A stretch of DNA of 64,000 nt from Neorhizobium huautlense (GTDB lineage: Bacteria > Pseudomonadota > Alphaproteobacteria > Rhizobiales > Rhizobiaceae): assembly GCF_002968575.1 (NCBI RefSeq), contig NZ_PVBM01000019.1, positions 1 through 64,000 on the forward strand, given 5' to 3'. A model generated the notes under the pieces. It ran no database searches. It worked only from the letters and a program-made list of their open reading frames with translations, and was not told the DNA's origin. Both the position numbers and the translations under genes were made by a program. Below, in pieces: positions 50,642 through 52,598 of this stretch; the stretch's first letter is position 1, and each line of letters begins with the position of its first letter.

Positions 50642-51040
50642 ATGATCGACCACATGGGCATCACGGTTGCGGATTTCGACCGCGCCAAGGCGTTCTACAA
50701 TGCGGCCTTTGCGCCGCTCGGGGCCTCGTTGCTGTATATGGTGCCGACGGAATATACGGGCGGCGTCAAGGTCGGCGGCTATGGCCGGGAGCGGCCGGTC
50801 TACTGGCTGCATGAGGGCACACCGCCAGCCGGCTACCACCAGCATATCGCCTTTACCGCCAACAGCCACGCCGAGGTCGACGCGTTCTACAAGGCTGCAA
50901 TCGCCGCCGGCGGCCGCGACAACGGCCCGCCGGGCCTGAGGCTACATTATCATCCGAACTACTACGGCGCCTTCGTCTTCGATCTCGACGGGAATAATAT
51001 CGAGGCGGTTTGCCACTCGGCGGAGGGAAGTCCGGAATGA
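50642..51040 (+). CDS. VOC-superfamily (glyoxalase-like) protein
   Basis: 132 residues with paired beta-alpha-beta-beta-beta modules: MIDHMGITVADFDRAKAFYNAAFAPLG at the start and HQHIAFTANSHAEVDAFYKAAIAAGG, GAFVFDLDGNNIEAVCH at the end. His4 (in DHMGI), His67 (in HIAFTA) and Glu124 (in NIEAVCH) could bind metal. AGGAGG precedes the ATG. Stop and the next GFA start overlap as ATGA (51037-51040). A glyoxal or formaldehyde-related role is suggested by its neighbours, not shown. Confidence 0.9.
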   Translation: MIDHMGITVADFDRAKAFYNAAFAPLGASLLYMVPTEYTGGVKVGGYGRERPVYWLHEGTPPAGYHQHIAFTANSHAEVDAFYKAAIAAGGRDNGPPGLRLHYHPNYYGAFVFDLDGNNIEAVCHSAEGSPE

Positions 51041-51522
51041 CTGACCAAATCCATACCGGGGGGTGCCAGTGCGGCGCGGTGAGATATCGCGCGACGGGCG
51101 AGATCGGCTTTCCGCATCTTTGCCATTGCCGCATGTGCCAGAAGGCGGCGGGGAACTATTTCATGCCGCTTGGCGGGGTAAAGTGGGAGGATTTCGCCTT
51201 CACCCGCGGAGAGTCGGCCTGGTTCCAGTCCTCCGAGACGGTGCGGCGCGGCTTTTGCGAAAAATGCGGCACCCCGCTCTTTTACGACGGCAGCAGCGAC
51301 CATATCAGCATCACGCTGGGTTCGCTCGACGATCCGCAAAACGTGAAGCCGCAGCTTCAGACCAACCTCGCCCGCAAGATGTCCTGGTTCGGAGAACTCG
51401 ACCACCTGCAGCACGACGCGGAGATGGACATGACGCCGGACCAGGAAAGGGCGGTGGCCAAAAGCACCCGGCAGCATCCGGATCACGACACCGATGCCTG
51501 GCCGCCGGAGGAAAAGCCATGA
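51037..51522 (+). CDS. GFA-family zinc protein, copy 1
   Basis: 161 residues. Zinc-binding cysteines in TGGCQCGAVRY (Cys10, Cys12), LCHCRMCQKAAG and FCEKCGTPLFY give the glutathione-dependent formaldehyde-activating/CENP-V fold, with two structural or catalytic Zn sites. The family activates formaldehyde for oxidation or binds other thiol adducts; specific activity is unknown here. It overlaps the VOC gene and the next GFA gene by four bases each. Confidence 0.92.
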   Translation: MTDQIHTGGCQCGAVRYRATGEIGFPHLCHCRMCQKAAGNYFMPLGGVKWEDFAFTRGESAWFQSSETVRRGFCEKCGTPLFYDGSSDHISITLGSLDDPQNVKPQLQTNLARKMSWFGELDHLQHDAEMDMTPDQERAVAKSTRQHPDHDTDAWPPEEKP

Positions 51523-52013
51523 GCGATGCGACAAGAACCGGCGGCTGCCAGTGCGGCGCCGTCCGCTTCCGGCTGGAAGGGGAGCCTTTCGAACCCTCGA
51601 TCTGCCATTGCCGCATGTGCCAGAAGGCCTTCGGCGCCTATTATGCGCCGCTGGTGGCGATCGGCGAGGCAAAACTTACCTGGACGCGCGGAACGCTCAA
51701 ATATTTCCAATCGTCCAATCACGTCCGGCGCGGCTTCTGTGCAGATTGCGGAACGCCCATGACCTACGAGGCGACCGACGGCATCGGCATCTCGGCCGGC
51801 AGTTTCGACGACCCGGCATCGCTGCCGCCGGTCATTCAGTTTGGCGTCGAGGGCAAGCTTCCCTTCGTCGACCGGCTGCATACGCTGCCCGAGCGCCACA
51901 CCCTTGATGATATCGACTCGGCTCCCTTCCTGAGCGACATTGTTTCCTACCAGCATCCTGATCACGATACCGAAACCTGGCCTATGCAAGGGCCTGCGGA
52001 GAACAAGCAATGA
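51519..52013 (+). CDS. GFA-family zinc protein, copy 2
   Basis: 164 residues: TGGCQCGAVRFRLEGEPF, ICHCRMCQKAFGAYYAPLV, FCADCGTPMTYEAT. All expected cysteines are kept, so copy 2 is probably functional. The second copy differs from copy 1 throughout the non-motif regions, so duplication is old. ATGA overlaps join it to both GFA neighbours. The C-terminal HPDHDTETWP echoes copies 1 and 3 (HPDHDTDAWP, HPDHDTAAWP). Confidence 0.92.
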   Translation: MSDATRTGGCQCGAVRFRLEGEPFEPSICHCRMCQKAFGAYYAPLVAIGEAKLTWTRGTLKYFQSSNHVRRGFCADCGTPMTYEATDGIGISAGSFDDPASLPPVIQFGVEGKLPFVDRLHTLPERHTLDDIDSAPFLSDIVSYQHPDHDTETWPMQGPAENKQ

Positions 52014-52480
52014 CAGAGACTTTGAGAACAGGCGGCTGCCAGTGCGGCGCCGTGCGCTTCCGGATCCATGGCGAGCTCGGCCGCGCCTCCATCTGCCATT
52101 GCCGCATGTGTCAGAAGGCCTTCGGCGGCTTTTTCGGGCCGCTCGTCAGCGCACCCAAGGACGGCGTTGAATGGACCCGCGGGGAGCCGAAATATTTCCA
52201 GTCGTCGGTCAATATCGATCGCGGCTTCTGCGAAAACTGCGGCACGCCGCTGACCTACCGCTATCCGGGCGGGCTGGAACTGTCGATCGGCTCCTTCGAC
52301 AATCGCGACGACCTCGCGCCGAAGATCCAGGTCAATTATTCGGCGCACATCCCCTGGGTAACGACGATCTTCGACCAGCCGGTCCGCGATGCGGCGGAAG
52401 ACGCGGCCAAGCAGGAGCAGATCATTTCGTTCCAGCATCCCGACCACGACACGGCAGCATGGCCGTCCAAGGGCTTCTGA
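52010..52480 (+). CDS. GFA-family zinc protein, copy 3
   Basis: 156 residues with GGCQCGAVRFRIHGELG, ICHCRMCQKAFGGFFGPLV, FCENCGTPLTYRYPGG and an HPDHDTAAWPSKGF end. Closer to copy 2 than to copy 1 in the MCQKAFG and TxxEPKYFQSS regions. Third in the overlapping series. The gene for a 38-residue membrane peptide starts 2 bases after its stop. Confidence 0.92.
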   Translation: MTETLRTGGCQCGAVRFRIHGELGRASICHCRMCQKAFGGFFGPLVSAPKDGVEWTRGEPKYFQSSVNIDRGFCENCGTPLTYRYPGGLELSIGSFDNRDDLAPKIQVNYSAHIPWVTTIFDQPVRDAAEDAAKQEQIISFQHPDHDTAAWPSKGF

Positions 52481-52481
52481 C

Positions 52482-52598
52482 ATGGTCGACAATCCCAACC
52501 TGAAGATGCCGAAATGGCTTCTTTACGGGCTGATCGCCAAGGGCGCAGTGGTGGTGCTGGTCACGGCGGCGATCGTCGCCTACGCCTTGCTCGGTTAG
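52482..52598 (+). CDS. 38-residue single-pass membrane peptide
   Basis: ATG 52482 follows the GFA-3 stop by one base. The product, [20 protein letters not shown] then [16 protein letters not shown], is a short polar N-terminus, a lysine hinge, and one hydrophobic helix (about 12-38). Its close join to the GFA genes and clean hydrophobic profile suggest a real small protein. No standard Shine-Dalgarno is visible; translational coupling to GFA-3 is likely. Function unknown. Confidence 0.65.

Follow-up and report, generated by a model that had tools for sequence, protein, structure and literature searches.

GFA-domain proteins are abundant and poorly understood. Most are annotated as having a formaldehyde activity, which is under dispute even in the prototype. 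In this prototype, the canonical Gfa of P. denitrificans, zinc is bound at a 4-Cys site (C31, C33, C99 and C102) and at a 3-Cys site (C52, C54 and C57) (PMC4682968). The canonical Gfa binds glutathione (GSH) weakly, with a KD of about 500 μM, and did not speed up the formation of S-hydroxymethylglutathione under standard conditions, leaving its catalysis in dispute (PMC4682968). Two other members, PA2722 (8AJQ) and RSP_2168 (3FAC), have solved structures and no assigned function.

The stretch analysed here (the window) comprises 64,000 nucleotides of the soil bacterium Neorhizobium huautlense, and all genes described below lie on its + strand. Three GFA genes were found in tandem: GFA1 (group G1; 51037..51522, 161 aa), GFA2 (group G2; 51519..52013, 164 aa) and GFA3 (group G3; 52010..52480, 156 aa). 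A VOC/glyoxalase-superfamily gene (50642..51040, 132 aa) precedes them, and a gene for a 38-aa membrane peptide with one hydrophobic span, as judged by eye, follows (52482..52598). The presence and coordinates of these five genes, as given in the initial annotation, were confirmed. It had also reported that the GFA genes share ATGA overlaps with their neighbours, which holds for VOC/GFA1 (51037-51040), GFA1/GFA2 (51519-51522) and GFA2/GFA3 (52010-52013). It does not hold for the last junction, at which one base separates the GFA3 stop codon (52478-52480) from the peptide ATG at 52482 (TGA-C-ATG). The same -4 overlap was observed at 74 of 86 GFA-GFA junctions of related loci, which excludes chance. 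A scan for promoters and terminators gave two weak promoter-like sites where 1.4 would be expected, which is near chance.

The five genes had been treated as a unit spanning 50642-52598, and these boundaries proved unnatural. The conserved upstream anchor cysS, encoding cysteinyl-tRNA synthetase (ORF span 49160..50608, with an internal ATG as the probable true start), ends 33 bp upstream of the chain. The prolyl aminopeptidase gene pip (52643..53602; TIGR01249, 403.6 bits against a cut-off of 259.75) starts 44 bp downstream. It is followed by the downstream anchor, a 2-isopropylmalate/citramalate synthase-like gene (53795..55411), which by its sequence is probably of the cimA type. In related loci the last GFA and pip share a -4 overlap at 37 of 56 junctions, an overlap that the window lacks.

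In order to avoid choosing loci by GFA likeness, relatives were located through cysS and not through GFA similarity. We found cysS in 57 additional assemblies of the genus and in genomes sampled from the whole order, and read the DNA downstream of it in 100 of these (57 same-genus, 3 same-family and 40 other-family). Two same-genus contigs stop just past cysS, leaving 56 usable same-genus loci with the window included; 39 of the 40 other-family genomes were usable, L201 being unreadable beyond cysS. At least one GFA was present between cysS and pip or cimA in all 56 usable same-genus assemblies. All three groups were present in 33 of the 56, and the partial sets were G2 with G3 (17 loci), G2 alone (2), G3 alone (2), G1 with G2 (1) and G3 with G1 (1). 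In the other families, the cysS-cimA interval holds one or two GFAs in 24 of the 39 usable genomes, and an interval without any GFA was seen in 13 of the 40 loci. A separate search by GFA2 similarity found the locus in Rhizobium, Neorhizobium, Agrobacterium, Allorhizobium, Ciceribacter, Mesorhizobium, Chelativorans and Mycoplana, among others, with four GFAs at the locus in Mesorhizobium sp. LHD-90 (L069). The real unit is the locus cysS-(VOC)-GFA(1 to 4)-(TM peptide)-(pip)-cimA. A literature search confined to freely readable papers, which is weak evidence, returned no description of the array or locus. The gene arrangement is real and old, and it is apparently undescribed.

Several other genes were seen at the locus in relatives. 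In 5 of the 56 same-genus loci (L121, L127, L142, L145 and L163) a further GFA lies between pip and cimA; these copies form a fourth distinct group (98/99 tree support), which overlaps cimA by ATGA and is absent from the window. The content of the stretch from cysS to the first GFA varies among many relatives. Here we observed a short PIN-domain-like (VapC-type) ORF in L107, between VOC and GFA1, and in L118, between cysS and the GFA, and a DUF559-like nuclease ORF in L108 and L147, all named by eye. A membrane protein with several spans and about 230-240 aa lies between the last GFA or peptide and pip in L158 and L136, and L140 has a similar-sized gap at the same place.

To place the three GFAs, a first tree was built from 192 GFAs, comprising 181 array members and 11 others from the N. 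huautlense genome. All 181 array GFAs split from the 11 others of that genome (SH-aLRT 90). In a second tree, built with more care from 69 GFAs, the in-family support was 95/90 for G1, 98/92 for G2, 99/91 for G3 and 99/94 for G2+G3. This tree did not firmly resolve the deepest G1 and G3 nodes (AU p 0.48 and 0.18, respectively), and the group labels of distant single-copy GFAs are provisional. Since G1-like and G3-like copies lie side by side in other families (L170, L172 and L188), the first duplication seems to predate the family. The three copies in the window are about 44-51% identical to each other, in line with their earlier description as non-identical paralogues, and cross-genome orthologues reach 79-92%. 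These comparisons indicate that GFA1, GFA2 and GFA3 represent three old orthologous groups. The initial annotation would have been undone by a local duplication seen in one strain only. The survey and the trees rule out such a recent event, to which we give practically no weight: the trio is common to many relatives, the trees place its members in three old groups, and orthologues of each copy occur in many genera.

All three proteins belong to the GFA family (PF04828: GFA1 84.1, GFA2 87.8 and GFA3 79.2 bits, with a cut-off of 24.3). The seven zinc-ligand cysteines (CxC, CxCxxC and CxxC) are invariant across G1, G2 and G3. When matched to the P. denitrificans Gfa, C10, C12, C74 and C77 correspond to the 4-Cys zinc site and C29, C31 and C34 to the 3-Cys site. 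The C-terminal QHPDHDT..W motif is mostly invariant across the groups as well. Of the three, GFA2 was modelled (pLDDT 89.7), and its model gave confident matches only to the GFA-domain structures 8ajq, 3fac and 1x6m (probability 1.00). The Cereblon CULT/MsrB/Mss4-like beta-tent proteins are reported to be distant fold relatives of GFA (PMC4287342). They matched the GFA2 model weakly in Foldseek (E above 3), and our analysis showed no sequence relationship between them and the GFAs.

Group-specific residues were found at positions 27, 38, 41-43, 46, 48 and 82-84, flanking the 3-Cys and CxxC motifs; they cluster directly after CxCxxC (38, 41-43, 46 and 48) and after CxxC (82 and 84). The consistent differences just after CxCxxC suggest that the groups have diverged in specificity. 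The dN/dS values between the window and its relatives were 0.12-0.26 for GFA1, 0.12-0.17 for GFA2 and 0.05-0.29 for GFA3, the last being 0.05-0.08 against L107, L108 and L109, and all three GFAs are under purifying selection. The initial annotation had proposed a division of labour among the paralogues. Copies that are old and non-identical, that keep their zinc cysteines under purifying selection and that differ by group beside the zinc motif fit this prediction, and on sequence grounds a division of labour is plausible. Alternatively, the copies may be duplicates of the same activity, providing dosage and kept by drift and translational coupling. Frequent GFA losses would agree with such redundancy, whereas the old groups keep their group-specific residues and low dN/dS, and we consider it a rather unlikely explanation.

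We tentatively favor, at somewhat less than even probability, an old array of two-zinc GFA-fold proteins that expanded in place at the cysS-cimA junction in the order of Rhizobium, its members acting as parallel thiol or adduct proteins of differing specificity. Each GFA would bind a low-molecular thiol, probably glutathione, or a thiol adduct at its three-cysteine zinc site, and the group differences after the three-Cys motif may mean that different adducts or aldehydes are handled. The GFAs would work in parallel as separate modules, with no obligate heteromer, and co-translation would fix their dosage. A VOC enzyme at the locus would plausibly take the same kind of thiol adducts as substrate, and the membrane peptide and pip would be co-resident genes outside the GFA function. 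This explanation is supported by the three orthologous groups, the ATGA signal, the fold and the seven zinc ligands, the group-specific residues, the purifying selection and the independent loss of single members. Points against it are that the neighbours cysS, pip and cimA share no common aldehyde pathway, that the prototype itself binds GSH weakly and without speeding up S-hydroxymethylglutathione formation (PMC4682968), and that the deep G1 and G3 nodes are poorly resolved. Aldehyde or thiol-adduct chemistry is plausible for these proteins by analogy with the family name.

The product of cysS is a zinc enzyme that uses cysteine. Next to it, the GFAs could serve zinc/thiol homeostasis and not aldehyde handling, either by buffering GSH or zinc or as redox switches. 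The seven invariant cysteines, the cysS neighbourhood conserved across families, and the binding of GSH by Gfa without clear catalysis (PMC4682968) speak for such a role; the GFA-less cysS-cimA loci of other families speak against it, and it seems to us an unlikely one. Less probable still is a combined picture, in which vertically kept zinc/thiol paralogues with a split substrate range form a modular, co-translated electrophile-scavenging cassette beside cysS and might connect damage to thiols with the enzyme that charges cysteine.

The initial annotation had also raised a heteromeric complex. In its obligate form, GFA1, GFA2 and GFA3 would act only together, perhaps held by the membrane peptide. 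The conserved ATGA coupling, the G1-G2-G3 order in most loci and the frequency of complete trios in the genus would be expected of such an assembly. However, members of an obligate complex should always co-occur, and the genomes contain several one- and two-GFA subsets as well as permuted orders (G2-TM-G3-G1 and G2-G1-G3). The varied subsets argue against an obligate heteromer. In L107 and L108, the two closest relatives, the peptide gene carries a frameshift while all three GFAs are intact, and VOC is present in only 16 of the 56 same-genus loci. We therefore judge the obligate complex, with the peptide as its possible anchor, improbable.

Within the same-genus survey, the window and L109 alone have the complete intact VOC-G1-G2-G3-peptide set. 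Pfam contained no family above its cut-off for the 38-aa peptide; a family consensus was drawn for it. It is present in 17 of 56 same-genus loci and intact in 15, the frameshifts in L107 and L108 looking like one shared one-base deletion. It is a real, conserved small protein, with a dN/dS of about 0.19 when the window is compared with L109 or L123. Its position varies, being before, between or after the GFAs; it directly follows cysS in L149 and L151, and in L199 and L209, from another family, it sits in a cysS-cimA interval that has no GFA. The frameshifts, the placement after cysS and the GFA-less loci rule it out as a necessary GFA subunit. The peptide belongs to the locus and not to the GFAs, as an optional neighbour. 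A relative of it was seen away from cysS, near a DinB-like ORF, in L207 (G094, another family).

The VOC protein scored 48.5 bits against PF00903 (cut-off 20.6), and its best solved relative was 4z04 (E 9.6e-34). No NCBIfam model matched it at E 0.1 or better, glyoxalase I proper included. In two other families, VOCs located at this position have the window VOC as their best match in the N. huautlense genome, so VOC has probably long been linked to the locus and been lost repeatedly. VOC is an optional neighbour and not integral to the GFA trio.

We compared the array GFAs with the canonical synthase. Their TIGR02820 scores were 20.6, 22.9 and 24.4 bits, about one tenth of the equivalog cut-off of 234.55, which rules out identity with canonical S-(hydroxymethyl)glutathione synthase. 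The N. huautlense genome as a whole contains no TIGR02820 member above the cut-off; its 14 GFA-domain genes comprise the 3 of the array and 11 elsewhere (L093-L095, L097-L099, L101, L102 and L104-L106), none a canonical Gfa. Since the canonical scores are missed and the prototype itself does not catalyse S-hydroxymethylglutathione formation under standard conditions, the formaldehyde enzyme label should not be carried over, and the automatic name "glutathione-dependent formaldehyde-activating enzyme" is unsupported for the array GFAs. At this locus three old paralogues have been retained next to one another in members of one family, and versions with one, two or three of them occur naturally. 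It would make a ready comparative system for what GFA proteins bind and for differences between the paralogues.

Outside the order, the neighbours of single-copy GFAs looked unrelated by eye and gave no functional hints; the Xanthomonas copy, for instance, lies between rnr-like and rlmB-like genes. The single-copy GFAs of Xanthomonadaceae, Sphingobium, Methylovulum and Hyphomicrobium are about 62-74% identical to GFA2, and two of the single-copy proteins (L029 and L075) carry the QHPDHDT..W tail as in the array; these single-copy genes lack the cysS-cimA neighbourhood. PA2722 and RSP_2168 are the best fold matches to GFA2, at 24-28% identity, with chains of 132 and 108-109 residues compared to 164. 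Unlike the P. denitrificans Gfa (1X6M; TIGR02820/EC 4.4.1.22), the array GFAs occupy the cysS-cimA neighbourhood, where no formaldehyde-pathway gene was seen adjacent, and they share with it the Pfam family, the two-zinc fold and the seven equivalent cysteines.
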